From the NCBI GenBank assembly GCA_017517805.1, contig JAFWYD010000062.1, positions 1-38,681 on the forward strand: a DNA stretch of 38,681 nt. The letters are read 5' to 3'. Below the pieces are notes generated by a model that saw only the letters and a program-made list of their open reading frames with translations, did not search any database and had not been told where the DNA came from. A program made the position numbers and the translations under genes. Below are positions 11,901-38,681 of this stretch, piece by piece; within the stretch, counting starts at the first letter, position 1; every line of letters starts with the position of its first letter. Origin of the DNA: Akkermansia sp. GTDB taxonomy: Bacteria; Verrucomicrobiota; Verrucomicrobiia; Verrucomicrobiales; Akkermansiaceae.

Positions 11901-12326
11901 CTGCTTGTAGCGGCAATTGCCCATCTGGAACAGAGCATAGGTGAAGAACGGCTCATAAGCCTCTGGCTGACCGGGGATATTCTCCTTTGCCTTGGCCAGC
12001 AGAGCGGGGGCCTTCCACTTCGGCTCATCCATGAAAGCCTTGAAGGCATTGTACGCTTCTTCATACATGCCAGCGTTGAAATAAACAACGGCCTTTTCCC
12101 AGGCATAGTAAGGCAGCACATAGGAGAACTGCTTAGCCGTAGCACCATTGCCACTAAAGCGCTTGATCACCATGTCGCAGAGCTTCACGGCATCCTCGGT
12201 CTTCTTCTGCTTCGACAAAGCCTTCACCTTGTTCAGAGAAGCCAGCGGATCCTGCGCCTGACATACCATGGGCATGCTCAGTGCCAAAGCGGCCATCACA
12301 GATACTGCTGTGGTATAAGTATTCAT
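8937..12326 (-). CDS. Very large exported TPR-type helical-repeat protein
   Basis: The 1129-residue product has a Sec signal peptide (cleavage likely after VCQA, residue 24) and then runs of paired helices resembling tetratricopeptide repeats. Examples are KTEDAVKLCDMVIKRFSG near the start, FNAGMYEEAYNAFKAFMDE, FEDAIACFEKYLGLVQSGK, and PKNALLAYMNLFNQYKGK near the end. It has no transmembrane helix after the signal peptide. TPR arrays scaffold protein complexes. Its position directly behind exbB and two exbD genes suggests a periplasmic partner of that proton-driven motor. The opposite strand holds an equally long open frame, which I regard as a codon-bias shadow. Confidence 0.9.
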   Translation of the reverse strand: MNTYTTAVSVMAALALSMPMVCQAQDPLASLNKVKALSKQKKTEDAVKLCDMVIKRFSGNGATAKQFSYVLPYYAWEKAVVYFNAGMYEEAYNAFKAFMDEPKWKAPALLAKAKENIPGQPEAYEPFFTYALFQMGNCRYKQGVGEAGKDNGDKSKFEDAIACFEKYLGLVQSGKVSATEKKQKMEGQICFILVQANILKEKPDFKKAAEYLEMSRKVKGRVPDEMAMEGLNTIVNVAISNPENVGWVYKLIESSPASYNLDPARAARNSNKFYNLGQRAYKVMDDALRAGNNEQAVEAARTANTLFGLVTDMPAARTSLANLIKGLGAYKKPLVDRGTGVRMSSESSRKLYASYKKLEEQGALFDGFSILSTATIAKDFGSNRLAKGGFQLLYDRFGKLARPAKGEGAEPAPLRNMVIMQLGALCRMTGDDDAALKYEKMLEGEDMGDQTKILVFQKMTRAVDDKDWQNVIPCAQEVLEHFKDDKTNKLYLTARYMIVASHYQLGAWEDVVKTATELIESDEMKAAEGKDALKPEQAANYDNYTYFFLMDAYARLAAKDPAQRDNAISTFEKYAAKYTDPDLKNAPLADKMYYGAIDQLMKRSAAAPDDKSAEEDKKAAIKYCDHICKNWPESDLYPTAELLAAGMLLNHTDDAVKATSMPRLERAAAGGVKLGTKSGRSTAANALFWLASYAGEYPNEGESEEAAKARCREYAERFWKEGDAEGDPFSLPMVSLYLTMVKDKADFENAIQRAQTIIAREATYMFKNEKSDPELEKTINSYVAAYVDGNKNYLGKTLTLEEKTAHFTSFPGIDPNDKYANAIFRMAQINSMNQELAGLKEDKAAKEKMEEQILGVFRDMTNTFKPEDLTNYICVQVGDYLVKYVSKFPDPSARTEELGQAEAYYEAVIGRNSDLVADAKLGMANALAFSKDAAKQKRSADLYTEVSSNPDPNVGGPALVGLTKLHLRTGNAAAAVETTNKYMKNRQNQRDRLDVMLMQGEAYTLANDPKNALLAYMNLFNQYKGKVGYSAKACLAIMEIFWKRNNPAQGDRLQKGFQNSDRWTAWNTGQLYVNLIRRSGVEAKLTPEERDEFNKVLSAVHNYGTDPAVMKEDKANKEFQRNLQSSKKK

Positions 12327-12432: not shown

Positions 12433-12924
12433 TTACTCCTGGGCGGCTGTATTCAGACCCACAGTCGAAATACCGGCTTCGGAAAGCGCGGCCATCACGT
12501 CCACGATGCGCTGGTGCGGCGTTGCCGGAGCACCTTCCACCATGACGATGGGATTCGTATCTGCAGCCTTGGCAGCTTCTGCCAGGTTCTTGAGAGCTTC
12601 CACCAACTCTCCCAGTTCGCGTTCCTCACGATACTCAGGAGAACGGGGATCCAGCCCGGGATTAATGGCACCGCCCATGGGCATGTCGCCATTCCAGTAA
12701 ATTGCACCAGAGGCCTCTACCTTGATGCGTCCGGGTTCCAGGGGCGGCGGGGTACCGCTGCCGGTGGAGTTGCCGGGCAGAGAAACGCTCAGGCGTTTCT
12801 CACTCACCAGTGAAGTTGCCACAATGAAGTAGATGAGCAGAAGGAAGCAGGCATCCATCATTGAGGACATGTTCATCTGCGGCTCCTCCTCAGGTTCTGC
12901 CTCGCGCTGTTTGCGTCTTGCCAT
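12433..12924 (-). CDS. ExbD/TolR-family biopolymer transport protein (second copy)
   Basis: ExbD/TolR proteins are single-helix partners of ExbB/TolQ in proton-driven inner-membrane motors. The 163-residue product has a charged cytosolic N-terminus (MARRKQREAEPEEEP) and the helix NMSSMMDACFLLLIYFIVAT. In this helix the membrane Asp (residue 26) sits where the family's essential proton-carrying Asp lies. A periplasmic domain follows (SVSLPGNSTGSG, then IVMVEGAPATPHQRIVDVMA and AALSEAGISTVGLNT). An insert of about 40 residues in the periplasmic part is longer than in typical ExbD. It starts 26 bases after the other exbD. Confidence 0.92.
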   Translation of the reverse strand: MARRKQREAEPEEEPQMNMSSMMDACFLLLIYFIVATSLVSEKRLSVSLPGNSTGSGTPPPLEPGRIKVEASGAIYWNGDMPMGGAINPGLDPRSPEYREERELGELVEALKNLAEAAKAADTNPIVMVEGAPATPHQRIVDVMAALSEAGISTVGLNTAAQE

Positions 12925-12950
12925 AATTCAGTAATCTTTCTTGTTAATGA

Positions 12951-13469
12951 TTATCTAGCCGGCAGGGTACCGAACACCACATTGGACAAACCAGCCGCTG
13001 CAGCGCAACGGATAACCGTAGCAGAACGCTCCCAGGGAGCATTCTGGTCACCACGCACGTAGAGACGAATCATGTTCGGATCGATGTTCTTGGCCTTCCA
13101 CATCTCAATCTGCTTGGTGATGAAGTCGGTCAGGTCCTGAGTCTGCTGAGCCTGGTAGCCGATGGTCTTGGCACCATCGGACACGCTCCACACAGTACCG
13201 GGAGCATAGCTTTCGCCGAACTTGGTAGCGGTGCGCTCATCCATCTTCTCCACATCGGGGAACACGTTGACCACCACGCAACCCTTGGCCTCCTTCATCT
13301 CTGAGCAAGTGACCGCATTGGGCATCTTGACGCAGGGATCCTTAGCCACCGTAATCTGAGAGGCGTTCACCACGAAGAAAATAATCAGCAGGAAGCAGGC
13401 ATCCATCATCGAGGACATGTTCAGCTCTGCCTTCGTATCATCTTCGGCTCGTGCTTTTTTCTTTGCCAT
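12951..13469 (-). CDS. ExbD/TolR-family biopolymer transport protein (first copy)
   Basis: This 172-residue protein has the same plan as its downstream neighbour: a basic N-terminus MAKKKARAEDDTKAE and the helix NMSSMMDACFLLIIFFVVNA with the conserved membrane Asp. Its periplasmic domain includes VTCSEMKEAKGCVVVNVFPD and ends with the ExbD-like IRLYVRGDQNAPWERSATVI and AAAAGLSNVVFGTL. The first helices of the two ExbDs are almost identical while their periplasmic parts differ widely. This points to an old duplication with specialised periplasmic roles, perhaps a mixed dimer. Confidence 0.92.
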   Translation of the reverse strand: MAKKKARAEDDTKAELNMSSMMDACFLLIIFFVVNASQITVAKDPCVKMPNAVTCSEMKEAKGCVVVNVFPDVEKMDERTATKFGESYAPGTVWSVSDGAKTIGYQAQQTQDLTDFITKQIEMWKAKNIDPNMIRLYVRGDQNAPWERSATVIRCAAAAGLSNVVFGTLPAR

Positions 13470-13497
13470 ATAAAATTTGACAGGGATTCTATGTTAC

Positions 13498-13533
13498 GCC
13501 GGCCTTGAGCTACTCGCAGGCATCAAGACCGGC
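13498..13533 (-). other. Intercistronic hairpin between exbB and the first exbD
   Basis: An 11-bp inverted repeat (GCCGGTCTTGA / TCAAGGCCGGC on the minus strand, one G-U pair) with a 14-base loop fills the 82-base gap after the exbB stop. No T run follows, so it is more likely a 3'-end stabiliser or RNA processing site, letting ExbB be made in excess of ExbD, than a terminator. Confidence 0.5.
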
Positions 13534-13551
13534 CCGGAATACTGGGAGGAA

Positions 13552-14406
13552 TCAGGCTTCCTCCTCTTCCTCTGCTTCTTCCTCGTATTCCTCCTCTTCG
13601 GCTTCTTCGTCATCGCCACCGAAGCCTTCGGGGATACGGGCAAGCATAGCCTCGCCATTCAGCGTGTTGATGGCAGCATTCATCATATCCTCAACGGCAT
13701 TGATGCATTCTGCCTCACGAGCCTTGGCGCTCTTGTTGAGGAAGTAGAACACCGGAAGAGCGATAAGGGAGATAATCAGACCCCAGAAGGTGGTAAGAAG
13801 TGCCACGGAGATGGAGCCTGCAAGCGTGGTCGGGTCAGCCTGGCCGGTTTCAGCCAGCACGGCGAAGGCTTCCACCATACCCTGAATCGTACCGAACAGA
13901 CCGATGGTCGGAGCGGTGGAACCGCAAAGGGCGAGCAGATCCACGAAGCGCATCAGAGCCGGACGCTCATTGGCAGTAAAATCAGCCACGGCATCGGACA
14001 CAGCATCCTTGCCCAGGTCTTCGGGGCGGTTGGCATCAACATTCGGCAGAGCATAAGCCACCAGACGGCCCAGGTAGGTGGGACTTTCGGTAGCAAGCTT
14101 GATGGCAGACTGCACGCGGCACTCGCTCATGAGGGCAACGAGTTCATCTCGCAGAGCGGCAGGAGCAAAGTGCTTCTTGTTGAGCTGCATGACGGTGTAC
14201 ACCACCAGCATCAGGGTGATGAAGAACAGAATCACCAGGGGAATCATGGTCCAACCACCATCAATGACCCACTTCTGGAGCATGTTGGTCTGCTTGGCGG
14301 CAGCTTCGCCTTCTTCCTGTGCAAGCACAAGGCCGGGGAGAGTAATCATTGCAGCAGTCATCAGGGACAGCGCACGAACACTAAAACGAGTAATCATGGA
14401 TTTCAT
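13552..14406 (-). CDS. MotA/TolQ/ExbB-family proton channel protein with signal peptide and acidic tail
   Basis: ExbB/TolQ proteins form the pentameric proton channel that energises outer-membrane processes. The 284-residue product starts with a cleavable-looking signal peptide (ALSLMTAAMITLPGLVLA, then QEEGEAAAKQ). It has a first membrane helix (TMIPLVILFFITLMLVVYTV) and the conserved block LLALCGSTAPTIGLFGTIQG (about residues 158-177) leading into helix two. A third helix (VALLTTFWGLIISLIALPVF) follows. It ends with about 20 residues of Glu with few other residues, which is unusual for the family. It heads the operon with two exbD genes and two exported helical proteins; no tonB is seen. 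Confidence 0.93.
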   Translation of the reverse strand: MKSMITRFSVRALSLMTAAMITLPGLVLAQEEGEAAAKQTNMLQKWVIDGGWTMIPLVILFFITLMLVVYTVMQLNKKHFAPAALRDELVALMSECRVQSAIKLATESPTYLGRLVAYALPNVDANRPEDLGKDAVSDAVADFTANERPALMRFVDLLALCGSTAPTIGLFGTIQGMVEAFAVLAETGQADPTTLAGSISVALLTTFWGLIISLIALPVFYFLNKSAKAREAECINAVEDMMNAAINTLNGEAMLARIPEGFGGDDEEAEEEEYEEEAEEEEEA

Positions 14407-26306: not shown

Positions 26307-26831
26307 TCAAGGCTTGGCCAGCTCCTGCCGGCAGACCTCAGGCTCAGGTATCAGCACGGGCCGCAGGCTCACATAATTCTCCGAATAATCCTCCGACGGC
26401 ACAAAGAGGAAGCCGGGCTCGGCGTTGCGCACCTCATATGAAGTGGCGCGAAACATCGGCAACACCTGGTTCGTGCTGGGGTCATAGGCATTTCGCCCCG
26501 TATACTCCCCCTTCACGATGTATTCCACATTCTGGTCTTTGCCAAACACAGCATTGGGCAAGGGCTCCTCCGGCCCTCGGTCCGGAGTATGCACCACGGA
26601 TTCATCCATCATCACCAATTTTGCGGTGCGCCAGCTCTGCCCCGGCTCGCGCAGATACCCCCAGAAGCGACACAGGGGAATATAGTAGCGGCGACCGATG
26701 AAATATGCCCCCTTCTCCTCCTGGGCAATAACGGCTTCCCGCTCCCGCAGAGCCTCGCAATCCGACCGCAGGGTGTGGCATTGAGTCAGCGCCATGCACG
26801 CTATCACCGCTATGATGCATTTCCTTCTCAT
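26307..26831 (-). CDS. Lipoprotein of unknown function upstream of ftsA
   Basis: From the ATG at 26831 the product has 174 residues, with a lipoprotein signal MRRKCIIAVIACMALTQC and the lipid Cys at residue 18. The mature region contains REREAVIAQEEKGAYFIGRR, aromatic YYIPLCRFWGYLREPG and a beta-rich end (VSLRPVLIPEPEVCRQEL). No family is recognised. An open frame starts 39 bases earlier (26870), but that stretch overlaps the promoter and would hide the signal peptide. It could be a division or envelope factor because of its place before ftsA, but that is only positional. Confidence 0.75.
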   Translation of the reverse strand: MRRKCIIAVIACMALTQCHTLRSDCEALREREAVIAQEEKGAYFIGRRYYIPLCRFWGYLREPGQSWRTAKLVMMDESVVHTPDRGPEEPLPNAVFGKDQNVEYIVKGEYTGRNAYDPSTNQVLPMFRATSYEVRNAEPGFLFVPSEDYSENYVSLRPVLIPEPEVCRQELAKP

Positions 26832-26841
26832 AATCGCTGTA

Positions 26842-26870
26842 CTTCTACCCCATTCCCTCCCCGGGGTCAA
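26842..26870 (-). promoter_or_regulatory. Promoter of the lipoprotein upstream of ftsA
   Basis: Minus strand TTGACC (26865-26870) and TAGAAG (26842-26847) with 17-base spacing place the transcription start only a few bases before the ATG at 26831. The -35 box is five of six, the -10 box four of six. Confidence 0.45.
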
Positions 26871-26974: not shown

Positions 26975-27015
26975 TGTACAAGCCACGCAAGAAAGGTTAG
27001 AATGTCCCGCGTGGC
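26975..27015 (+). promoter_or_regulatory. Promoter of the tubulin-like operon, with an inverted repeat around the -10 box
   Basis: TGTACA (26975-26980) and TAGAAT (26998-27003) are 17 bases apart. The expected start near 27010 gives a leader of about 40 bases to the FHA gene. A 7-base inverted repeat, GCCACGC (26982-26988) and GCGTGGC (27009-27015), encloses the -10 element and could be an operator. The rest of the 220-base gap from 26832 holds only the divergent lipoprotein promoter. Confidence 0.5.
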
Positions 27016-27051
27016 GTGTCCTGTTATCAGGCGTATCCAAACTCTCTCATC

Positions 27052-28368
27052 ATGAAACATCACCTCCAACTGTTGCTACTTATCTTTGTGGCATACCTGG
27101 TATGCATGCCCTGCGTGGGACAAACCGCCAGCGAACAAGCCGGCATCATCCAGCTCTCGAATACATACAGGGAGATTGCGAAAAGCATCAAGGAGATTGA
27201 AACGAGCCTGAAAACCGATCAGACTCCTCAACCCCAGAAATATAAGATTTATCTGAGTGAAATCGCCCGCAAGTTCCACACCTTGCGAGACACCGGAAGC
27301 GTCACCCCGGCTGACAAGAATGCTCGCACCAGAATCAACACCGCCGCTTACGAGGCATTGCTGAAAGACAAGGAGTTCGGGGGGTATGCCGACACCATCG
27401 ACCAGCTTAGAAAGGCAAGCCTCCAGACATACCCACTTCCCATCCCCTACATCGCCAACTGCATCGACCCGGCGCTCGTCCCCCACGTCAGATCGCAAAA
27501 GAAAAACCGGAGTTCAGAGAAGGAAGATGCAGAAGAAACCGGCACCAATACAGCAGGCGGAAAAGTATTCGCTATGGTCTTGGCCGGAGCAGCCGTCCTT
27601 ATCGCCCTGGGGCTCGCCCTGTATTTCCGCTCCGCGAAGGCCGCCGCAGCCAGAAAAGCCCTGGCCGCAAAAAAAGCCAGAGCTCAGCGCATCATCGAGG
27701 AATCCCTGGCTATCATCGAAGAGCAACACAAAATCATCAAAGAAACCTATACCCGTATTGACCAGGAAAGCATCGTCAGCGAAGCAGAGCGCAAGATCAG
27801 ACAAGCCAGGCAGAAAATTGATGAAGCCTGCGCCATCACAGGCACCACGGTGAAGATTCCGGAGCTGCCCCCGCCCCCGCCTCCGCCCACCAACTCCTAC
27901 GGAATCGAAAACTACACCTGCAGCGAAGACCTGCCCTCCGACACTCCCCCCTTGCAAAAGCCTGAGCGAGTGTTTCCTGGCAGCGAGTGCTCGCCCGAGC
28001 GCACCTTTACGCTGGTCATCCACCACCAGGGGCAATCCCCCAGGCGATTCCCGCTGACCAAACCGGTCGTATCAGTCGGCCGCAAGAGCACGCACACCCA
28101 GCAGGGGCCGGATATCTGCATCGACACCGAGGACAAGGGCATCTCGCGCGTCCACGCGGTGCTCTCGTACAAATCCTTCCCGGAGGAAAACTCCTATTTC
28201 TGGATACTGGCCATCAACCAGTTCAGCGATAAGAACCCTGGGCTTGAGCATGTGCGCACAGCCGAGATGGAAACCGGCGATGGCAAGCGACTCCGGCACA
28301 TTGCCTTCATCATGGAGCGCAACAGGAAAGTGCATCTTTCACCGTCCATCTACCTCTGCATCGAATAA
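27052..28368 (+). CDS. Membrane protein with periplasmic domain, coiled coil and C-terminal FHA domain
   Basis: From the ATG at 27052 the product has 438 residues. It has a signal peptide or N-terminal helix (1-23), a helical periplasmic region (24-170, e.g. REIAKSIKEIETSLK) and a transmembrane helix VFAMVLAGAAVLIALGLALY (172-191). An Ala/Lys/Glu coiled coil (195-262), a proline linker with PPPPPPP, and an FHA domain (about 318-430) follow. The FHA core residues are visible: SVGR (341-344) and ISRVHAVLSY (364-373, with Ser365, Arg366 and His368). FHA domains bind phosphothreonine, so this is the likely reader of the two kinases. It links a periplasmic sensor region to the cytosol and heads the operon. 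An earlier frame start at 27016 lies too near the promoter. Confidence 0.9.
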   Translation: MKHHLQLLLLIFVAYLVCMPCVGQTASEQAGIIQLSNTYREIAKSIKEIETSLKTDQTPQPQKYKIYLSEIARKFHTLRDTGSVTPADKNARTRINTAAYEALLKDKEFGGYADTIDQLRKASLQTYPLPIPYIANCIDPALVPHVRSQKKNRSSEKEDAEETGTNTAGGKVFAMVLAGAAVLIALGLALYFRSAKAAAARKALAAKKARAQRIIEESLAIIEEQHKIIKETYTRIDQESIVSEAERKIRQARQKIDEACAITGTTVKIPELPPPPPPPTNSYGIENYTCSEDLPSDTPPLQKPERVFPGSECSPERTFTLVIHHQGQSPRRFPLTKPVVSVGRKSTHTQQGPDICIDTEDKGISRVHAVLSYKSFPEENSYFWILAINQFSDKNPGLEHVRTAEMETGDGKRLRHIAFIMERNRKVHLSPSIYLCIE

Positions 28369-28392
28369 AATCCCCCATCTCTCCCATCAACC

Positions 28393-29271
28393 ATGGCAAC
28401 GACAGTAGACATCGGCGGCAACAGCTACCAGGGTGCCCGCGCACGGCAGGAAGACTGCTTCATGGCCTACCGGCTCACCGAAACCAAGCCCAAAGCCAGC
28501 GCCCGCTACACCACCAGCAACGAACGGCAGGTGAACCTGGGCATCCTCTGCGATGGCATGGGGGGCGAGGGCAACGGCAGCATCTGCTCCAGGCAGGCGG
28601 TTCAGGCATTTGCGGAGGCATTTGCCGAAACGGGGTCCTTCGACACCGCGTGGTACCAGCGTCTTCGCATGGCGCTCTATGCCGCCAACGCAGCCATCCT
28701 CGAATACAAAATCAACACCAACACGGAAAACACCAATTCCGGCACCACCCTCATCGGCGCGGTCATCAGCGAGGAAAAGCTCCACTACGTCTCGGTGGGG
28801 GATTCCCCCATGTACCTCTTCCGCAAGCAGCGCAATACAGGGGAATATACCGCCAGCCGCATCAACGCTTCTCATTCGCACTGGTTCCACTACTTCACCG
28901 AAAACGGCGTGAAGTATAAGAAGGAAGTCAGCAAGGATGAGGCTGACACCATCAACCAGCACCCCTCAGCAGACTCCTACTGCAAGCCCGTCGGGCTGTA
29001 CAGCGCGGTCTGCGGCAGCGCAATCGGCTACATGGATGCTTCGGGGGAGAGCGGGATCGACCTGCTGGATGGTGATATCATCATGCTGTGCTCCGACGGT
29101 GTCTCCGGCACCCTGGATGAAAGCGACATGACCAACATCATCCGGAATTACAGCGCCCCCCATCACCCGGCGAAAGAAGCCGCCTACCAGATGATTCAGG
29201 CCGTCAAGGCAAACGCCCAGGCCAGGCAGGACAACGCCTCCTGCATCATCCTCAAAGTACACATCGACTAA
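28393..29271 (+). CDS. PP2C-type (PPM) Ser/Thr protein phosphatase
   Basis: PPM phosphatases remove phosphate from Ser/Thr using two metal ions. The 292-residue product has all main motifs: ARARQEDC (15-22, metal/phosphate residues), LCDGMGGEGNG (52-62, metal Asp54), SGTT (116-119), YVSVGDSPMYLF (132-143), IIMLCSDGVSG and ARQDNASC near the end. The usual cytosolic form without a membrane helix is seen. An insert of about 20 residues between strands (ETKPKASARYTTSNERQ) is longer than in minimal members. It begins 24 bases after the FHA gene. It is the probable eraser opposing the two kinases at 35427-38681. Confidence 0.95.
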   Translation: MATTVDIGGNSYQGARARQEDCFMAYRLTETKPKASARYTTSNERQVNLGILCDGMGGEGNGSICSRQAVQAFAEAFAETGSFDTAWYQRLRMALYAANAAILEYKINTNTENTNSGTTLIGAVISEEKLHYVSVGDSPMYLFRKQRNTGEYTASRINASHSHWFHYFTENGVKYKKEVSKDEADTINQHPSADSYCKPVGLYSAVCGSAIGYMDASGESGIDLLDGDIIMLCSDGVSGTLDESDMTNIIRNYSAPHHPAKEAAYQMIQAVKANAQARQDNASCIILKVHID

Positions 29272-29313
29272 TCCGCAAATTTCTTACCAAACCTACTAAA
29301 CCAATCCACCATT

Positions 29314-30174
29314 ATGCAATACATAACCAACATCACATTCTGGCTCACCTCCGCGATGGAATCCCTCGTGGTCGCGATTTGCGTTGCCGTGCTCATCCTC
29401 CTTGTCAGCCTGTTCGGCTTCGGCTTCGGAGTCGGGCGCATCTGGAACAAGAAATGGTCGCTCAATGCACCCTGCCTGCTTGTTTCGCTGCCCATCGCCC
29501 TGCTCACCGCAACCCTGGGTGCCACTTACGTCGGCATGAACTTCATCGATAAGACCATCCTCTCCAAGGAAGCCAACCCGCGCGTCCTGCAGGAAATCGA
29601 AACCGTACTGAGCGGCAGCACCTCCCTCATGCAACTGGCCTTCCACAGCGGCATCAAGGAAATGACCAGCAAGAACAGCAGTATCAATTCTGCCCTCTAC
29701 GACGAAAATTCAACCGAACTCAACATCCCCGGCGATACGCCTGAGGAACGCCTCGGAAATGAACAAGCCTTCCTCTCCGGAGCCATCAATGCCATCGCAA
29801 AAGGCAAGAAAGCAGGCAAGAGTGCCCGCACGGCCGTGCAGGGGCTGGCCGACATGCCCCCCTTCAGCTACGGCTACACCCCCGCCTCCCGCGATGACAA
29901 CAACGGAAGCATCCAGGCAGCCTACACGGAAGCCATGAGCGCAGCAGGCCAGATGGGCACCCCCATCACCCTCGACAATGACCTCTGGTTCAGAAACCTG
30001 GTCAACCCCATGGTGAAGAACAACATGGAGCGTTTCTCCAAGAGTGTCGGCAAAGACCTCGATGGCCAGCGCACCAGTCTGATTATCCTGATGATTGCCC
30101 TGCTCATTGCCCAGGGCGCGCTGATTTCCTGGCTGGCCTTCATCGATATCAAGCCCCTCTCCAACGAACAGTAA
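29314..30174 (+). CDS. Three-helix membrane protein of the tubulin-like operon
   Basis: The 286-residue product has two N-terminal helices (VAICVAVLILLVSLFGFGFG, about 20-39, and LLVSLPIALLTATLGATYVG, about 55-74), then a soluble region of about 175 residues. The soluble part includes EIETVLSGSTSLMQLAFHSG and a Ser/Asn/Gly-rich middle. A C-terminal helix (LIILMIALLIAQGALISWLA) precedes a short tail. No family is recognised. The plan of helix pair, extramembrane domain and closing helix loosely recalls MotA/ExbB-type proteins, but no sequence motif supports that. Its place directly before the tubulin-like gene (34 bases) suggests a membrane anchor or channel for it. Confidence 0.85.
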   Translation: MQYITNITFWLTSAMESLVVAICVAVLILLVSLFGFGFGVGRIWNKKWSLNAPCLLVSLPIALLTATLGATYVGMNFIDKTILSKEANPRVLQEIETVLSGSTSLMQLAFHSGIKEMTSKNSSINSALYDENSTELNIPGDTPEERLGNEQAFLSGAINAIAKGKKAGKSARTAVQGLADMPPFSYGYTPASRDDNNGSIQAAYTEAMSAAGQMGTPITLDNDLWFRNLVNPMVKNNMERFSKSVGKDLDGQRTSLIILMIALLIAQGALISWLAFIDIKPLSNEQ

Positions 30175-30208
30175 TTCATCTCTCAACCTTTATATCTGAC
30201 ACAATTTT

Positions 30209-33200
30209 ATGAAAAAACAAATTTACATCGGTCTGGGTGGTCAGGGTGGCAAAACCATTTGCGAGCTCCGCAAGCAGATTCACCAGCTGCAATTGTACAA
30301 GAAAGCCAACGAAAACTCCGCAGGCTTCAACGCGGACCACGCCTTCCTTTCCATCGACAGCAGCCCTGATATCTGGAACACAGGTGAAGCATGGTTCCAC
30401 ATGGGTGAGGATTTATCCCTGAAGGAAAACGAAAAATGCGAGCTTTCCAAGGATTTAATCAACACCAGCGCCCCCAATATCGTACCCTGGCTGTTCAGCG
30501 ATGACTACGAAACGGCTATGGCGCAGAAATCTGCCCTCGGCACGATTGACAAGGGAGCCCCTGGTGCCCAGCAGCGCCGCCGCTACGGCCGACTCCTTTT
30601 CGCCGCCAATGCGGACAGGGTGCGCGATGCCATCGAAAACACCATGGTCCGGGCCAGCCAGAACAACCGCGAGGCCTCCGCGGTATTCCACGTATTCTGC
30701 TCCCTGGGTGGTGGCACCGGCTCCGGCGGCATTGTCGACCTCATCACCACACTCCGAGTGATGTATCCGAGCCGCAGAACCCACAACATCAACCTCTATG
30801 TCTACATGGCGGATGAGCGCGGTGTCAAAGCAGCCTCGGTCTACGACTACTTCTACGTCAACCAGTATGCGACCCTGCGCGACCTGGACAACCTCTCCAC
30901 GCATATCTTCCGGCCGCATGCCATGATCAACCGCGAAGCAACCCAGGTCAGACTCGGCAGCCGGGTCTCGAAACTGGATTCCCCGATTGACTGCCTCTTC
31001 ATTTCCACCAACGTCAACAGCGTCAACCAGGCCGTGCACATCAATGAGCAAATCAAGCGCACGGCCAGCTGGGTTATCAGCCGCGCCTCCCTGGAGGAAG
31101 GCTGCTTAGACCACGACATCCACAAGCTCGCCACCGGTGAAGACCTCACGGCTTCGGTAAGGGGTGAGCCCGACGATGAGACCAACACCTTCATTGCCCG
31201 CTCCTACCGCTGCGGCAATCTGGGGGCAGCCCGCTGGGCAGCACCGGTGGATGAACTGGCCCTCATGTCTGCCTACAGCATCCAGATGAACTCCTACCGC
31301 CAGATGCTGTACAACAACCTGCAGCGCAACCGTGGCTATGTTGAAGAGGAAGCAGAACTCAACCTGAACGATAAGGCCGCCTACAACAAGGTCTTCAAAA
31401 ATAACTTCCTGCTGGCCCAGGAAGTGCAGGCGGGCTGGCAGCAGTGGATAGCCAGCGACCCCGGCATCCAGGGCATCATGCAAGGCAAGCAGGACGCAGC
31501 CGCCCTGCTCAAGCTCAGCAAGCTGTTTGAAAGCTACTTCCAGGATTCCGTGCTCAGCAAGAATACTTCGTGCAGCATCTCCCTGCCAAACCGCCACGGC
31601 ATGATTCTGGGGCAGATGCGTGCCCTTCTCGGGCTCGGCGACACAGACACAACTGCCACCGGACTTTCCCTGCTTATCATGGAGCAACTGAAGCTGGCCA
31701 TAACCCAGGCCTGGGACAATGGCTCCATCGGTCTGAAACAAGCCTTGCAGATTATCGAATTCTGCATCGAAACGACCTCGGAATGCCATGAGCAACTCTG
31801 CCAGGAGCACGATGCCATGGGCGATAAGGGCGCACTCATCACCACCGTGCAGGAACGCATTGCGCAGCGCCAGGCCGAGTGGGAGAAGCTCACCGCCCTC
31901 TCCTACGCCACCATGGGCAAAGGCAAGAGCTTCCTGAAAGCCCACATGGCCGATCTTGTTGCCATCTATACCGCCAAGACCCAGCGTCAGCACATCGCAG
32001 ACATCATCCAGGAACTCGAAACTCACAAGGACCGTCTCCGTTCCCTCAAGGACAGCATCCAGCGCCCCATCACCGCCATCACGCGCAAACTTGATGACAT
32101 CAAGGATAAATACCATGCCATCACACTGCGCCGATTCATCGAGGAAGGAGTCCGCCCGGGAGAAGACCTCGTGCTCATGTACGACTTCAACTACGCAGAC
32201 CCTGCCCTCATCGGCCTGGTCTCGCATGTGCAGACCAACACAGATGCCGGTCAAGGGCAGACGATTATCAAGAACGCGGAAGCTATCCGCCAGCTTGCCA
32301 CCGCTTCCCGAATCGTGGATCCGGCGCTTCCCGGCTTGTTCGACCGCGCCGAAAACATCGATGCCAGGACGGATGGTTCTATCACCGTCAAATCCTTCGA
32401 ACTGGCTGGCACCATGATGAGAGATTCCGACCGCCGCTATGCCTCCAACATCATGGGCGGCATCAAGACGGTCACAGCCAATATGACCACGGCAGACTTC
32501 AAGTCGAAGTTCCGCAAGCTCATCAACTCGGCCGCCTTCAGCTACGATACGGATGACACAACCCCCTCCCCGACCATTGCCTATGCCTTCCAAAACATCT
32601 ATAAGAAGGCCTGGGTCATCAGCTTCCCGATTGGCTTCAGGCTCGATGGGCAGGAAAAAATGCCTGACGAACTCAAGGCAGAAGTTCAAAGCGTCATCGG
32701 CAACGAAGCCACCGACGACTCCGTCTATGTGCGCATGAGTGCAGACACCACGCAGATTTCCCTGTGGGAGATGGAATACGCGCGCCCCGCCAGAACGGCC
32801 AGAATTGTGACAACCCACAGCAACTCCCACAGGAGCATGGAAGCCAGGGGGAAAATCCGCGACCTGTTCTGGATGAACATCGATGAGGAATCCACGCGCC
32901 TGATGTGCCCGCTCACCTTCCCGAACTACGATGAGACGGAGTATATGCGCCAGGGTGCCATGTGGTTTGCCAAGCAGATGCCCGGCTACTTCCTCATTAA
33001 AGAAGAGGGCGGCCGCGTCATCCGCAAGGGTTCCGGCACAAACCGCGATGTTGAAATTCACCGCACCAAGGGCCAGAACCCCATCACGAACGACACCTTG
33101 TTCGCCTTTGAGGTCCAGACAGCATTGAGGCTGTGTATCTGCCAGAAGCGTGAGTTCACCACCGCCGACTTCCGCACCAAGTACCAGGCAGAGCTGGATG

Positions 33201-33307
33201 CCATCACCAATTACGATGAGCGCGAAGCCTTCCGCACCATCGGTGATGAGTTCATCCTCAAGACTCTCGCCCGCATCGACCTGACACAGCACGACATGCA
33301 GGACTAA
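30209..33307 (+). CDS. Large tubulin/FtsZ-superfamily protein (tubulin-like, not FtsZ)
   Basis: The 1032-residue product begins with KKQIYIGLGGQGGKTICELR (GLGGQGG at 8-14, the T1-type nucleotide loop). It has FLSIDSSP (47-54, T3-type) and FCSLGGGTGSGGIVDLITTL (163-182, the tubulin signature GGGTGSG). This matches the tubulin-like family known from mixed bacteria and archaea, which Makarova and Koonin proposed to act in membrane remodelling. The protein is about three times the size of FtsZ. Beyond the GTPase core (about 1-330) lie a helical middle (about 480-690, coiled-coil stretches such as IIQELETHKDRLRSLKDSIQ) and a mixed C-terminal domain. GTP binding is likely; polymerisation is inferred. 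No Shine-Dalgarno is seen. Confidence 0.9.
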   Translation: MKKQIYIGLGGQGGKTICELRKQIHQLQLYKKANENSAGFNADHAFLSIDSSPDIWNTGEAWFHMGEDLSLKENEKCELSKDLINTSAPNIVPWLFSDDYETAMAQKSALGTIDKGAPGAQQRRRYGRLLFAANADRVRDAIENTMVRASQNNREASAVFHVFCSLGGGTGSGGIVDLITTLRVMYPSRRTHNINLYVYMADERGVKAASVYDYFYVNQYATLRDLDNLSTHIFRPHAMINREATQVRLGSRVSKLDSPIDCLFISTNVNSVNQAVHINEQIKRTASWVISRASLEEGCLDHDIHKLATGEDLTASVRGEPDDETNTFIARSYRCGNLGAARWAAPVDELALMSAYSIQMNSYRQMLYNNLQRNRGYVEEEAELNLNDKAAYNKVFKNNFLLAQEVQAGWQQWIASDPGIQGIMQGKQDAAALLKLSKLFESYFQDSVLSKNTSCSISLPNRHGMILGQMRALLGLGDTDTTATGLSLLIMEQLKLAITQAWDNGSIGLKQALQIIEFCIETTSECHEQLCQEHDAMGDKGALITTVQERIAQRQAEWEKLTALSYATMGKGKSFLKAHMADLVAIYTAKTQRQHIADIIQELETHKDRLRSLKDSIQRPITAITRKLDDIKDKYHAITLRRFIEEGVRPGEDLVLMYDFNYADPALIGLVSHVQTNTDAGQGQTIIKNAEAIRQLATASRIVDPALPGLFDRAENIDARTDGSITVKSFELAGTMMRDSDRRYASNIMGGIKTVTANMTTADFKSKFRKLINSAAFSYDTDDTTPSPTIAYAFQNIYKKAWVISFPIGFRLDGQEKMPDELKAEVQSVIGNEATDDSVYVRMSADTTQISLWEMEYARPARTARIVTTHSNSHRSMEARGKIRDLFWMNIDEESTRLMCPLTFPNYDETEYMRQGAMWFAKQMPGYFLIKEEGGRVIRKGSGTNRDVEIHRTKGQNPITNDTLFAFEVQTALRLCICQKREFTTADFRTKYQAELDAITNYDEREAFRTIGDEFILKTLARIDLTQHDMQD

Positions 33308-33331
33308 TCCTACCCCAGGAATCAGCAAACC

Positions 33332-35335
33332 ATGAATCTCCCATTCAACCGGTTTACAAAGCTTATCATGCTTACGGCTGCCACAGCCGTAAGCATGGTA
33401 TCATGTTCTCCCCCTGAAGAAATCCAGGAAGCGGAAGCACTCTCTCTGGACTACCGCAACAAGGCCAGCAAGCTGAACACCGATTTTTTCCGCACGACCC
33501 GCATTTCGCTGGAAAACGACCCGGGTGTGGACCTCAGCCCCTACACGCAACTGCGCGATAAGGTAGTGAACGACAAGACCCAGTTCATGACCAAACTGGC
33601 CAAGTGCGAAACCCAGGCTGAGGCCGATGCCTTGTTCAAGGAACAAGTGGACTACACCACCGAGAACGACCAGCAGAAAGCCACCATGCATGAAGTGGTG
33701 AACAACAACAAGGTGCTGGTCGAACTCAGAAAGTTCAAAACCAAGGCCAACAATGCTGAAAACATCAAGAAATCGACGCTGGATATCGTGCAGGCCTTCC
33801 AGGATGAAGAAGGTGAAGACGAATGCGTTGAAGAAATCGACCGGATTAACACCAATCTGGACGAAGGCAACGCCAAGCTCCGCTCCATCAACTCCTCCTC
33901 CACCGGCTTCAACAGCAAGCTGGATGCCAAACGCGGCGAAATCGATGACCTGCACGCAGAAATCACGCGCTTGATGGAAGAACGAGCAACAGCATACCGC
34001 AACTGGGCACCGAGGCCCCCTGACCCGGAACTCCCGGAAAAGGTGCTCTTCACCATCAAGACCACCCCGGCCATGTATGAGCAACTGCTGGCACCGCTGG
34101 CCCAGCAGTACAAGAACTACACACTCATGTACACCGGTCCCAAGACCGGCAACCGCTGCATAGCCGATGCCCAGAACAAGGAAGGTATCGTCTTCCGCAT
34201 CGTCAAACCCGCCGAGCTGGGGCTTTCGCTCGATAAACTCGAGCAGAACATGGCCGATGCGGTCATCAGTTTCCGCAATGCCTTCCCGGAGGAGCATTAT
34301 GCGCAGTTCGAGGAACGAGCCGCCGCAAACGACCAGGATCTGAACTCCATTATCGTCTCGGGCATGGCCTACAACGCTCTGGTCATCAAGACCGGCAACG
34401 AGAACCAGCTTGTGCAGGCGACAACCGCCGCACTTGAACGAGAACTGGGTAGCTGTGAGCTCTACATCGGCGAGGAAGGTACGCTGGATAAAGAGCTCTT
34501 CGATATCATCCTCCCCGGAAGCACACTCCCGGCACAGCCGGTAGTTTCACCCATCAAATCGGGTACCGCAGCGGCCAACGGGGCAGCCCTCGTCGCTTTC
34601 CGCCGCGAAGCCACAGGGGGGAAAGACCTGCGCATCGCCCGCACGGTTTCTGATGACTCGGTGTATTTCTTCCCCACCGTCGGCAACATCGCCACCGGTC
34701 GCTATGCCTACGGGGCCTCTGTCAATGCAGTCCTGAATCCGGCCAGCACCGGTTACGATAACATCCGCGAGTTCCTGGACTTTGTTCTCAGCGCCCAGGG
34801 GCAGAACGTGGTGAAATCTGCAGGGTTCATCTCGCGCGATGAATACGATGAGGACAACGTGGAGCTGAAGCGGCTCAAGAAACTCTTCCTGAAGCAGGGG
34901 TACACAATCGGGCGTATCATCACGCACGATACCTTCCTGTTCCCCAAGAATGATACCCGCATCAGCAAGAACCCGGTAGTCAGCGACCGGAAAGCGGATT
35001 TCCGCGAGTTTGACTCCAATATCCGCAGCAATTTCGGCCACATTACCAACGTGCTCAACAGCATCACCAGTAACGCGGGTATCATTGCCGTGGGTATCAT
35101 CGGCCATGCCAGTTCCGAAGGCGGTGCAGCCATTAACCTGCCGCTGTCGATGAATCGTGCCAAATACACAGGTGCCCATATCAAGGACCGCACCAAGGTG
35201 CAGCTGCTGCTTACCGATGGCATGAGCTCAGAGGTACCGGTAGATACGAATAAGGAAGAAAGCGGCCGCATCCGCAACCGCCGCGCTACCGCCTACGTGC
35301 TCGAGGTCTTCGAAATCGGCACTTCCGGCAAATAA
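33332..35335 (+). CDS. Lipoprotein fusing a PstS-like binding domain to an OmpA-like domain
   Basis: The 667-residue product has a lipoprotein-type signal (LIMLTAATAVSMVSC, Cys25) and a helical coiled-coil region (about 30-220, with KFKTKANNAENIKKSTLDIV). A periplasmic binding-protein domain follows (about 235-520, KVLFTIKTTPAMYEQLLAPL; NPASTGYDNIREFLDFVLSA as in PstS-type phosphate binders). It ends with an OmpA-like domain (about 550-660) with IGHASSEGGAAINLPLSMNR and a final NRRATAYVLEV, the peptidoglycan-binding pattern. It would reach from a membrane lipid to the cell wall. A 13-bp inverted repeat sits inside the signal-peptide codons (33364-33400). It closes the operon before a strong terminator. 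Confidence 0.88.
   Translation: MNLPFNRFTKLIMLTAATAVSMVSCSPPEEIQEAEALSLDYRNKASKLNTDFFRTTRISLENDPGVDLSPYTQLRDKVVNDKTQFMTKLAKCETQAEADALFKEQVDYTTENDQQKATMHEVVNNNKVLVELRKFKTKANNAENIKKSTLDIVQAFQDEEGEDECVEEIDRINTNLDEGNAKLRSINSSSTGFNSKLDAKRGEIDDLHAEITRLMEERATAYRNWAPRPPDPELPEKVLFTIKTTPAMYEQLLAPLAQQYKNYTLMYTGPKTGNRCIADAQNKEGIVFRIVKPAELGLSLDKLEQNMADAVISFRNAFPEEHYAQFEERAAANDQDLNSIIVSGMAYNALVIKTGNENQLVQATTAALERELGSCELYIGEEGTLDKELFDIILPGSTLPAQPVVSPIKSGTAAANGAALVAFRREATGGKDLRIARTVSDDSVYFFPTVGNIATGRYAYGASVNAVLNPASTGYDNIREFLDFVLSAQGQNVVKSAGFISRDEYDEDNVELKRLKKLFLKQGYTIGRIITHDTFLFPKNDTRISKNPVVSDRKADFREFDSNIRSNFGHITNVLNSITSNAGIIAVGIIGHASSEGGAAINLPLSMNRAKYTGAHIKDRTKVQLLLTDGMSSEVPVDTNKEESGRIRNRRATAYVLEVFEIGTSGK
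33364..33400 (+). other. Strong stem-loop inside the signal-peptide coding region
   Basis: A perfect 13-bp inverted repeat (33367-33379 and 33385-33397, CATGCTTACGGCT / AGCCGTAAGCATG) with a 5-base loop can be extended by three more pairs in RNA. It begins about 33 bases after the ATG at 33332, so it is inside the reading frame of the lipoprotein. Such a structure could slow or gate translation. No T run follows, so it is not a standard terminator. Confidence 0.8.
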
Positions 35336-35364
35336 TTCCGGATTTCCACACGAATCCCTCCCCT

Positions 35365-35411
35365 GACAAACGCTGCTTTAGTGATACTCACGGCAGCGTT
35401 TGTCTTTTTTT
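35365..35411 (+). terminator. Terminator of the tubulin-like operon
   Basis: A perfect 12-bp stem GACAAACGCTGC / GCAGCGTTTGTC with a 16-base loop is followed by seven T. It lies 29 bases after the lipoprotein stop and separates the plus-strand operon from the convergent kinase genes. No T run exists on the minus side. Confidence 0.94.
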
Positions 35412-35426
35412 ACAACGGAGTCAAGC

Positions 35427-37169
35427 TCACCATTTCCAGCGGTTTTTCAGCGAGGTAATAACCGTCCGGGCGAGCGTAGAGGCCTCGCGCCCGGCTTCTT
35501 CCAGCCGGCAGGCAGCCTCGCTTGCACCCGCCTTCAACTGAGTCACCTTCTGCCTGATCTGCCATTGCACATCCGGATCATTGATGAACGCCCGGCAGGC
35601 ATCCGCCGTCTGATTCAGCGATGATTGGAGGCGGCGCAGCTGAACCTGCACCTGTTTTTTTACAAAGGGGATACCGATATCAATCAGGTGGTTTATCTGC
35701 TCGGTCAATCTGCGCATACGAGGCATCAATTCACCGCGCAAGCGCTCGATTTCAGCCAGCAACTCCACAGAGCGGGGATATGCCTGAGGGTTGAAGTCCG
35801 GCGGACAAACCGGCACCGGCAGCAGCGTCTTTTCCTCCAGGTCGCAAACTTCAAGTTCCAGCACCTGGGGAGGCTCCTCCTGGTCCTCGAGCTTCTGCAG
35901 CCGCCGCTGCATATCCTCCACCTGGCGTTTCTGCTCCTCCAGCTGTTTCTTGTAATCCTCCAGCTGGCGCAGATAGGCTTCCTCAGCCTCCTTCATGCGG
36001 GCTTCCTGCTCAGCCTCAGCCTTCATCTCATCGAGCCGGCGAAGTTCAGCAAGCCACTCACGGGCACTTTGCCAGCGGGCTGCAGGCTCCAGCGCCAATG
36101 CCTTATTGACAGCGGCAAGAAAGGCCTCCCCATAGCGGGGAAAATCCCCCGGCAGGAGTGGCGCAGGAGCATCGCAGGCCTTTTTTCCGCTTATCATGTG
36201 GTACACTGTGGCACCGAGGGCATAAATATCTGACCATGGGCCAATCTGCGCCGCCCTGGAGTAGTCGCGCTGTTCCGGCGGTGCATAGCCTTTCGAAAAT
36301 ATCACCCCCGCACCGGAATCTGCATTCAACTGGCGGGAAGCGCCGAAATCAATCAGCATCGGCGTGTTGCCCTCCTGCATCATGATATTGGAAGGCTTGA
36401 TATCCAGATGCAGAATACCATTGTCATGCAGATACTCCAGTCCTCCGAGCAGCCCCGCCAGCACCGGCAGCAGGCGGGATTCATCCCACGAGCCTGCCGC
36501 AAGGTCTGTGTCGAGAGTACGGCCCTGCACATAGCGCATCACGTAATAGGCCGTGTTGTTCTCCACAAACAACCTGGATACACCCACAATGTTGGGGTGC
36601 TGTTTGTAGCGGCCTGCGGCCGCAATCATGCGGGCTTCGCGCACAAAGTTTTCAAGCACGACCGGGTAGGAATCTGTCTCCTGACCCAGCTGGTATGAAT
36701 GCACGGAAATGGAATCTTCGCAACTACGCCCTGCCAGCTGACGGGGAAAATTCTCCTTGATAACACAATCCACCTTCAGGGAATGGTCGTATGCCAGATA
36801 GGTAATACCGAAGCCCCCCTGCCCCAGCACCTCCTTTACCGTATAGGTTCCCATATCCAGCTGCGTTCCAGCAGGCAACGGCTCCACGCTCAGCTGGCGG
36901 GAGCACACAGATCGCGCTATGGCTCCGGATAAAATCGTTTCCTCATCCTCTACCCGCACTTGTTCCACAGCACCGTGCTCCCCAGTTGAGGGATGCTCCA
37001 CTATTCGGGTAAACTGAGTCTGGGCATCATCCGGTGGGCAAAGCTCCACCCGGGGGACAGGCTGCACCGCATCCCCTGATGCGGAAAACTCCGTTTCATC
37101 ACCAGCTACCGCAGCTGGCCTGCGTGATTCTACCGGCATGTAAACCGTTTCCTCTTCAGAAGATTCCAT
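35427..37169 (-). CDS. Ser/Thr protein kinase with acidic N-terminal tail and C-terminal coiled coil
   Basis: From the ATG at 37169 (AGGAAGGGG upstream) the product has 580 residues. The N-terminal tail (1-105) carries repeated acidic Thr motifs (EEETVY, GDETEF, DEETIL). The kinase domain (about 108-375) has the glycine loop GQGGFGITY (116-124), Lys138 in CVIKENF, the catalytic HLDIKPSN (254-261; Leu replaces Arg of HRD), DFG (274-276) and GYAPPEQ. After WQSAREWL comes a Glu/Gln/Lys coiled coil (about 378-450) and another helical part (about 485-570). No membrane helix is seen. It lies 46 bases after the second kinase. It faces the phosphatase/FHA operon, which suggests one circuit. Confidence 0.92.
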   Translation of the reverse strand: MESSEEETVYMPVESRRPAAVAGDETEFSASGDAVQPVPRVELCPPDDAQTQFTRIVEHPSTGEHGAVEQVRVEDEETILSGAIARSVCSRQLSVEPLPAGTQLDMGTYTVKEVLGQGGFGITYLAYDHSLKVDCVIKENFPRQLAGRSCEDSISVHSYQLGQETDSYPVVLENFVREARMIAAAGRYKQHPNIVGVSRLFVENNTAYYVMRYVQGRTLDTDLAAGSWDESRLLPVLAGLLGGLEYLHDNGILHLDIKPSNIMMQEGNTPMLIDFGASRQLNADSGAGVIFSKGYAPPEQRDYSRAAQIGPWSDIYALGATVYHMISGKKACDAPAPLLPGDFPRYGEAFLAAVNKALALEPAARWQSAREWLAELRRLDEMKAEAEQEARMKEAEEAYLRQLEDYKKQLEEQKRQVEDMQRRLQKLEDQEEPPQVLELEVCDLEEKTLLPVPVCPPDFNPQAYPRSVELLAEIERLRGELMPRMRRLTEQINHLIDIGIPFVKKQVQVQLRRLQSSLNQTADACRAFINDPDVQWQIRQKVTQLKAGASEAACRLEEAGREASTLARTVITSLKNRWKW

Positions 37170-37215
37170 GAAGCACCCGCCCCTTCCTGCTGCTTGTGTT
37201 AGTCTGTCATCGGTA

Positions 37216-38681
37216 TCAGATGAGGCGCTTGGATTCACGCGTAATCTCATCCATCTGCTGGTAGAGCTCCAGCCACTCACGGGCAGATTGCCAGCGGTGC
37301 CTGATTTCTGGATGCATCGCCTTATCGATGGAGGCCAGGAAAGCCCGGCTGAATCCCGGGTAGGATTTCACTTGCTCTGAAAGCGGGCGACTCTGCGGAT
37401 TGGGGCGAGTCCCGGTAATGATATGGTGCATCGTAGCCCCCAGGGCGTAAAGGTCCGTCCAGGGTCCCAGTTCGCTGAGGCGCTCATAGGCGCACTGCTC
37501 AGGCGGTGCATAACCTGCAGAAAACGCCATCGCCCCATTCGGGAGCAATGTGCTGAGCGAGGCCCCGAAATCAATCAGCACCGGCACGATTCCCTTATTC
37601 ATGAGGATATTATCCGGCTTGATATCCAGGTGCAACACCCCGAGCTCATGCAGATAAGCCACACCACCCAGCAGACCTTCGAGCAATTCGCGAGCCGATG
37701 CTTCATCCCAGCCGCGACCCTCCAGACACTTCCGGAGCGATTCTCCCTCGATATATGGCATCACGAAATAGGAGGTATTGAAATCCTCAAAAAAGGTAAC
37801 CACATCCACTATGTTGGGATGCCTCTCCTTGACCGCAGCGATGATTTTCGCTTCTTTGAGGAAATTATCACGCAACGTTCCATAGGGATCATCCGGCCTT
37901 CCCTGCTTGCGGGAAACCACATTCAGATTCCGGAGGCGCACTACGAAGTCCTTGGGGAAGTTCTCCTTGATGATGACCTTCCGGTTCAATTTCACATCCT
38001 CTGCCAGGTAGGTGATACCGAATCCCCCCTGCCCTATAGGTTTCTTCCTGGGGCTGCCATCCGGCTTCCGCTCATCATCCCGGACTTCTAGGATGATTCT
38101 GTATGTACCGCGGTTCAGCAATGTACCATCCGGCAGGAATTGCTCATCGGCCAGCTCCTCTAGTCCCGTCTCCTGCCGCAAAAGCACAGATGCGGGTACT
38201 ACCGGCATACTCTCCAACCCATGTCGCGATGGCACATACGCAGGCATTCCTGAACCAGACGGCAATGGCTGTGCATCAGCTGCCGGCAGCACCGAAAACC
38301 CTTCAGGCCGGGGGCTTTCGTCTGTTGCAACCGCAGCCTTTTCGCCGGAAGGCTCCGGCTTGGTCGCATCCACAGACTGGGAGCATATCGGTCTATCCAT
38401 ATCTACCGGGCAGGCCTCCCGGGGCAACAATGATGAAACCTCATCCTCCCCTGCCGGCACAGCCACAGCTTCCCCCGGCGGTGAAACGACTGCTCCCACA
38501 GGGGCTTTCCCCAACCCCAGCAGCGTGGATACCTCATCCTCCTCTGCCGGCACAGCCACGGCTTCCCCCTGCGGTGAAACGACTGCCCCCACAGGGGCTT
38601 TCCCCAGCCCCAGCAGGGTGGATACCTCATCCTCCTCTGCCGGCACAGCCACGGCTTCCCCCGGCGGTGAAACGACTGCCC
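37216..38681 (-). CDS. Ser/Thr protein kinase with tandem-repeat N-terminus (5' end outside the window)
   Basis: The reading frame is open to the window edge, so the start is unknown; at least 488 residues are here. Counting from the codon at 38652, residues 1-75 are 31-residue repeats (PAEEDEVSTLLGLGKAPVGA...). A Pro/Ser/Glu linker follows, then the kinase: GQGGFGITY (207-215), Lys229 in VIIKENF, HLDIKPDN (341-348, Leu for Arg in HRD), DFG (361-363) and GYAPPEQ (380-386). The C-terminus ends soon after WQSAREWLELYQQMDE, with no coiled coil, unlike the neighbouring kinase. Both share a near-identical glycine loop and catalytic loop and probably arose by duplication. An apparent GTG start at 38652 is only a repeat codon. 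Confidence 0.9.
   Translation of the reverse strand, partial: AVVSPPGEAVAVPAEEDEVSTLLGLGKAPVGAVVSPQGEAVAVPAEEDEVSTLLGLGKAPVGAVVSPPGEAVAVPAGEDEVSSLLPREACPVDMDRPICSQSVDATKPEPSGEKAAVATDESPRPEGFSVLPAADAQPLPSGSGMPAYVPSRHGLESMPVVPASVLLRQETGLEELADEQFLPDGTLLNRGTYRIILEVRDDERKPDGSPRKKPIGQGGFGITYLAEDVKLNRKVIIKENFPKDFVVRLRNLNVVSRKQGRPDDPYGTLRDNFLKEAKIIAAVKERHPNIVDVVTFFEDFNTSYFVMPYIEGESLRKCLEGRGWDEASARELLEGLLGGVAYLHELGVLHLDIKPDNILMNKGIVPVLIDFGASLSTLLPNGAMAFSAGYAPPEQCAYERLSELGPWTDLYALGATMHHIITGTRPNPQSRPLSEQVKSYPGFSRAFLASIDKAMHPEIRHRWQSAREWLELYQQMDEITRESKRLI
38458..38681 (-). repeat. 93-bp in-frame tandem repeat in the kinase gene
   Basis: Copies start at 38458, 38551 and 38644, exactly 93 bases apart. They differ by only a few substitutions, and the third copy runs off the edge. 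A decayed partial copy (EDEVSSLL) lies at about 38430-38457. Each unit codes 31 residues, so gain or loss of copies keeps the frame. Confidence 0.95.

Follow-up and report, generated by a model that had tools for sequence, protein, structure and literature searches.

A tubulin-like gene cluster with phosphorylation and envelope genes in an Akkermansia lineage, and its relatives with MotA/MotB-like genes

Genes of the cluster

The stretch of DNA analysed here (the window) is an entire contig of 38681 bp (G000:C68) from an Akkermansia sp. genome that shares its genus with Akkermansia sp. RGIG7496, and it carries a plus-strand operon of five genes (27052–35335) that includes a gene for a tubulin-like protein. 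By predicted domains the operon encodes, in order, an FHA membrane protein (438 aa, 27052–28368), a PP2C phosphatase (292 aa, 28393–29271), a three-helix membrane protein that we call TM3 (286 aa, 29314–30174), the tubulin-like protein TUB (Tubulin_2, 1032 aa, 30209–33307) and a PBP-OmpA lipoprotein (667 aa, 33332–35335), with intergenic spacing of 24, 42, 34 and 24 nt. A strong hairpin followed by a U tract (35365–35411, plus strand) closes the operon as a terminator, and two minus-strand Ser/Thr kinase genes oppose it: PK1 (35427–37280), which encodes 617 aa with a coiled-coil tail, and PK2 (37216–38679), whose called gene shares 65 nt with that of PK1 and whose 5′ end is cut off at the contig end. 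The cut lies within a 93-bp tandem repeat (38438–38681) inside the PK2 gene, which is probably responsible for the assembly stopping there. This gene set and its arrangement, including the close spacing, the terminator and the two facing kinase genes, had been described in a first-pass annotation of the sequence and are confirmed here.

TUB scores 108.5 bits against the Tubulin_2/FtsZl1 model PF13809 (cut-off 27), which places it in that family, and a confident model gives it a tubulin/FtsZ fold with an intact GGGTGSG nucleotide motif. A helical insertion of ~400 residues apparently splits the tubulin core. D312 and E320 are invariant near the T7 loop, and assignment of the T7-loop acid is not confident. 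A second, short Tubulin_2 protein of 383 aa is encoded elsewhere in the same genome (contig C20, L014 8897–10048), and short frames like it are found in G211, taken to be the RGIG7496 genome, and in seven genus genomes with no other TUB match. This short frame was set aside, its neighbours including UvrB-type and sialidase-type genes in a relative and, in the window genome, a 2722-aa protein without a Pfam match.

The partners of TUB are recognisable to different degrees. TM3 carries a Trp-Asn pair just past helix 1 (W44-N45) that is invariant in 18 of 18 relatives. The FHA protein consists of a signal-like segment, a periplasmic part, one transmembrane (TM) helix, a coiled-coil linker and a C-terminal FHA domain (~residues 316–438), which has the FHA beta-sandwich with its Gly-Arg and Ser-Arg motif, R344 being the predicted phosphate-binding Arg; a sequence search of this domain against the PDB gave no hit, the best match being to GarA at E 0.9. 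The OmpA domain of the lipoprotein falls below its cut-off in the window (22.9 of 27.2 bits) and lies above it in the RGIG7496 lipoprotein (32.8 bits). On the 5′ side of the operon, on the opposite strand, lie a small gene (26307–26870) and then ftsA and ftsZ. The small gene has a lipobox-like start as judged by eye, is 77% identical to its RGIG7496 copy and matched no family in a Pfam scan.

Conservation of the gene set and the motor-like genes of its relatives

Several lines of evidence indicate that the gene set extends beyond this genome. RGIG7496 carries FHA-PP2C-TM3-TUB-OmpA in the same order, adjoining ftsA-ftsZ and with at least one facing kinase gene, and its TUB is 82% identical to that of the window. 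Among 76 genus genomes, 15 have TUB matches: two of the window type (the window genome G000 and G211), six of a more distant type and seven with only a short frame of ~390–405 aa. The PP2C subfamily is likewise found in two of the 76, again G000 and G211 (E 8.6e-141 and 2.2e-141, next best 1.6e-30, using a profile built to contain both sequences), so that it co-occurs with window-type TUB in exactly the same two genomes; some PP2C at E 1e-5 is present in 73 of the 76. In metagenomes, comparison within a protein database of 16 TUB clusters (P0003–P0018) with 17 PP2C clusters (P0040–P0056) yielded five pairs with exactly equal longest-contig sizes, reaching down to 39% TUB identity, and one of the five sizes also belongs to an FHA relative. 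Comparing distant TUBs with closer PP2Cs, and closer TUBs with distant PP2Cs, gave no match; the comparison left out distant against distant. Across seven TUB-PP2C pairs the distances of the two proteins correlate (r 0.74; 26 of 5040 permutations). The conserved order in RGIG7496, the co-occurrence and the size matches together argue that the set is no accident of one genome, which answers both the search for co-occurrence that the first-pass annotation had proposed and its caution that the genes might be neighbours in this genome only. Two further observations concern these gene families elsewhere. RGIG7496 has a second long TUB (L026 2488–5688), 44% identical to that of the window, which adjoins a sialidase-like gene and has no TM3, OmpA, MotAB or PP2C gene in the fetched stretch, and other contigs of genus genomes (G226:C156, G198:C213 and G046:C2) have kinase genes in tandem with a PP2C-like match only a few kb away.

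Outside the window type, no kinase, PP2C or FHA gene was detected in the fetched TUB neighbourhoods. When the neighbourhoods of more distant TUBs were scanned with profiles, built partly from the same loci, MotA- and MotB-like genes were found instead, and loci held out of the profiles (L015, L016, L089, L090 and L091) score 3e-155 to 1e-78 for them. Twelve loci of a first clade, drawn from metagenome-assembled genomes (MAGs) of Akkermansiaceae, from further families of the same order, from Thiocapsa imhoffii and from a MAG of Thiodictyon, have the order TM3-TUB-OmpA-MotA-MotB, with TM3 uncalled in one (L031); five loci of a second, Akkermansia-group clade have one to four MotA-like genes after OmpA and MotB in three. 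A MotA-like gene is therefore present in all 17 loci that continue beyond OmpA and a MotB-like gene in 15, the remaining two (L034 and L036) being loci whose fetched sequence stops in or right after the MotA-like genes. Outside this count are L022, from the genome that also holds L035, and L027, both of which stop at contig ends, and L099 (G193:C27), which has three open reading frame (ORF) pieces resembling broken TUB copies and no module genes nearby. In L034 and L036 four MotA-like genes follow one another past OmpA, perhaps forming a hetero-oligomeric motor ring. In still more distant copies TM3 and TUB are accompanied by a vWA gene (L093, type B) or by a PBP-OmpA gene (L095–L098).

The MotA-like proteins resemble ZorA in its membrane core: profile A2 matches this part of the solved structures (columns 119–207) at E 2.8e-8 for 8qyd and at E 0.009 for the tail-less 8qyh, while unrelated coiled coils also score against the profile through its tail (best 1.3e-9). 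PADLOC ZorA matches of these proteins fall mostly on the coiled-coil tails, with none for the L018 protein, and Pfam MotA_ExbB (PF01618) matched none of the five scanned (four at E up to 0.05, one at 0.01). The MotB-like proteins have one TM helix with an Asp (D20 in alignment A3) that is invariant in 9 of 9 rows and that may be the ion-carrying one, as in MotB and ZorB; several have an OmpA-type C-terminus, the four tested match ZorB models at 3.5e-6 to 4.4e-25, and no PDB entry matched a MotB profile at E 0.01. Distances among TUBs track those of MotA (r 0.94), MotB (0.82) and OmpA (0.89) across 11 loci, L015 standing for itself and for L016, which has identical scores.

The ZorA-like MotA profile found nothing in G000 or G211, both 90–93% complete, and the same profile recovers those of the modules in G085, G046 and G140 and gives a weak hit in G010. 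Elsewhere in the window, the minus strand at 12433–14406, together with 8937–12326, encodes an ExbB protein (PF01618, E 1.8e-23), two ExbD proteins (PF02472) and a 1129-aa TPR protein; this ExbB (13552–14406) belongs to a separate, ordinary branch and does not match the ZorA-like profile (E 0.14).

A TUB tree (quick search, Shimodaira–Hasegawa-like approximate likelihood ratio support, with long-branch and composition warnings, and leaving out L033, whose TUB was not captured by ORF picking) groups the window clade (20 rows, support 100) apart from two MotA-type clades of 13 rows (99) and 20 rows (95), many of the latter 20 being without known context. Between the two Akkermansia genomes, the genes differ to unequal degrees. 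DNA identity between the window and RGIG7496 is 81–84% in ftsA (two full bins) and 83–88% in TUB (bins wholly inside), compared with 66–72% in PP2C-TM3, 67–70% in the OmpA gene and 51–55% in the FHA gene (two bins). Along the FHA protein, identity is 37.5% in the periplasmic part, 36.2% in the linker and 50.8% in the FHA domain; the periplasmic part and linker, which change fastest, may sense the envelope.

Comparison with known systems

The nearest precedent is the work of Makarova and Koonin, whose available 2010 text links FtsZl1 (Tubulin_2) to vWA proteins, kinases, a GTPase and OmpA proteins, reports a vWA-domain gene in most FtsZl1 operons and proposes a role in membrane remodelling (PMC2875224). 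The window shares with those operons the tubulin-like family and two kinds of frequent partner, kinase genes (PK1 and PK2) and an OmpA-domain gene (the lipoprotein), and differs in having neither the family GTPase nor a vWA protein; as the first-pass annotation had stated, no vWA match was found among the window proteins, here by Pfam scan. The terms FHA, forkhead, phosphatase, PP2C, MotA, TolQ and ExbB do not occur in the main text of the 2010 paper, although TM3 or MotA could be among the families that it leaves without a name (PMC2875224). Kinase and OmpA partners of Tubulin_2 have thus been known since 2010, and kinase fusions of Tubulin_2 are described in Planctomycetes in the available text of a later paper (PMC9871819). 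Searches of open-licence PubMed Central (titles and the starts of abstracts) for tubulin-like proteins with ZorA, MotA or OmpA, or with PP2C or FHA, listed nothing describing this combination; the first-pass annotation had likewise known of no system with this exact set.

Other systems share parts of the set. The MotA-like gene and the MotB-like gene of the relatives, the latter encoding a single TM helix in which an Asp is invariant and a C-terminus of OmpA type, resemble ZorAB of Zorya (PMC11890865) and to the MotAB, TolQR and ExbBD stators (PMC12505986), and the word tubulin is absent from the available text of both papers. The window operon has neither ZorA nor ZorB, the related modules have them only as ZorA/ZorB-like genes, and no ZorC or ZorD was seen. 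GAP1-N2 GTPase-centred conflict systems, as far as the available text describes them, have neighbourhoods with tubulin-domain genes or with a kinase and PP2C and are predicted to form cytoskeleton-like complexes; there tubulin and kinase-PP2C are separate themes accompanied by GTPases and vWA, whereas the window unites kinase, PP2C, FHA and tubulin without them (PMC7159879). CetZ, TubZ and BtubA/B are 12–16% identical to TUB, which differs from them by its helical insertion, its C-terminal extension and its envelope gene partners.

In type VI secretion systems (T6SS), the threonine phosphorylation pathway PpkA-PppA-Fha comprises a kinase, a PP2C phosphatase and an FHA protein. The window has the same three, its FHA protein bearing a signal-like segment and a TM helix. 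The first-pass annotation had likened the cluster to this pathway; T6SS signalling was dropped as the family of the cluster because no T6SS gene was recognised among the window proteins in the Pfam scan, the rest of the genome not having been searched for T6SS. The MotA/MotB-like genes of the related modules make a motor-coupled envelope module, and not T6SS signalling, the best comparison.

A proposed envelope-anchored machine and its alternatives

Considering the gene set and order, their conservation in other genomes and the MotA/MotB-like genes that we observe in relatives, we think there is about an even chance that the cluster encodes a tubulin machine anchored in the envelope and switched, at the level of assembly, by threonine phosphorylation, as a variant of the modules that have MotA/MotB-like genes instead. 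With such genes in the relatives and no MotA-like gene of this kind found in the window genome (about 90% complete), the window type looks like a Tubulin_2 envelope module in which a phospho-switch replaces the ion motor. TM3 would dock the tubulin-like GTPase TUB at the inner membrane, and a kinase would phosphorylate TUB, TM3 or the FHA protein. Binding of the phosphothreonine by the FHA domain of the membrane-bound FHA protein would then recruit or release the polymer, and PP2C would reset the mark. The OmpA lipoprotein would tether the assembly to peptidoglycan, and the envelope would be remodelled locally or the wall put under force as a result. The same core would, in the relatives, receive its force from an ion-driven A/B pair.

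A number of observations weigh against this proposal. The inner membrane separates the lipoprotein from the cytoplasmic GTPase, which leaves TM3 or the FHA protein to connect the two. Equal contig size is indirect evidence for one contig, and size matching misses the TUB-PP2C pair of RGIG7496 itself (P0002 102408, P0041 53482). RGIG7496 shares 80% identity in FHA and 88% in PP2C with the proteins inferred on the P0003 contig but only 65% in TUB; judged from these sequences, the histories of FHA-PP2C and TUB appear partly separate, and exchange or diversification of the control genes seems to have gone on separately from the tubulin gene. The window clade and the two MotA-type clades join in an unresolved fork, so the tree does not decide between a motor that was lost and one never present. 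Finally, PK1 has matches in all 76 genus genomes (eight in G000, five in G211), its best non-self match being the syntenic kinase of G211 (1.3e-105), and the facing kinase of RGIG7496 (L025 15210–17075) bears a DUF805 membrane domain at its C-terminus, which PK1 lacks. Since kinases are so widespread and were already known beside Tubulin_2 genes and as fusions, the kinase link is the weakest part of the set (PMC2875224, PMC9871819); the reading of the first-pass annotation is thus supported in part, for the conservation of the set beyond one genome.

Some of these features would also fit a defence or conflict system, an anti-phage or anti-competitor device with Zorya-like and GTPase-conflict-like logic and the phosphorylation kit as trigger, which we regard as unlikely while still the most credible of the alternatives. 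At E 1e-20 the TUB family has a patchy distribution (11/189 order, 20/260 family and 8/387 phylum genomes), and FHA, PP2C and OmpA genes are fast or exchanged beside a slower tubulin gene. The MotB-like matches to ZorB models noted above, those of MotA-like proteins to ZorA models being weaker, point the same way, as do two of nine tested flanking proteins of relatives that match the candidate defence families PDC-S01 and PDC-S37, a third that matches a CRISPR-associated 2OG model, and the matches of the window kinases to MAD6 and PD-T4-6 models. However, these kinase matches are generic and far below the MAD6 cut-off (119.5 vs 460 bits), the window operon has no nuclease or other effector, the locus sits between ftsA-ftsZ and the kinases, away from defence genes, and no TUB relative was found on viral contigs.

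It is less probable still that the phosphorylation genes lie beside the tubulin module by chance and function independently of it. Kinases are common across the genus and the FHA-PP2C identity ladder differs from that of TUB, yet the inferred PP2C-TUB linkage reaches 39% TUB identity and the co-occurrence of the two is exact across the 76 genomes. About equally improbable is a cell-division accessory that modulates the neighbouring FtsZ/FtsA, in which TUB would be a partner of FtsZ or a decoy for it and division proteins would be the targets of the kinases: the operon adjoins ftsA-ftsZ in both genomes that carry it, but these are only two of 76, ftsA-ftsZ stands without it in three others tested, and related modules were not seen beside ftsA or ftsZ (phmmer, both as queries).

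Returning to the envelope-anchored machine, a broader and more tentative suggestion, which we hold to be somewhat short of an even bet, is that a class of machines spans the envelope and has Tubulin_2 proteins as its cytoplasmic part. Their fixed core would be TM3, the tubulin-like GTPase and a PBP-OmpA wall anchor, and the drive would be exchangeable, either an ion motor of the ZorAB/MotAB type, in related clades and purple sulfur bacteria, or a kinase-PP2C-FHA switch, in this Akkermansia lineage. If this is true, one tubulin homologue would be coupled to the rotary 5:2 motor family and another would have its envelope assembly under Ser/Thr phosphorylation control. In the papers examined, the function of Tubulin_2 has stayed at the level of prediction since 2010. 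A conserved partner set, comprising TM3 with its invariant Trp-Asn, a lipoprotein predicted to bind the wall and either a motor-like pair or a phosphorylation kit, gives ‘membrane remodelling’ the shape of a machine that can be tested: TM3 is the likely membrane receptor, the lipoprotein the anchor, and the drive comes in two alternative forms, all in small transferable operons.

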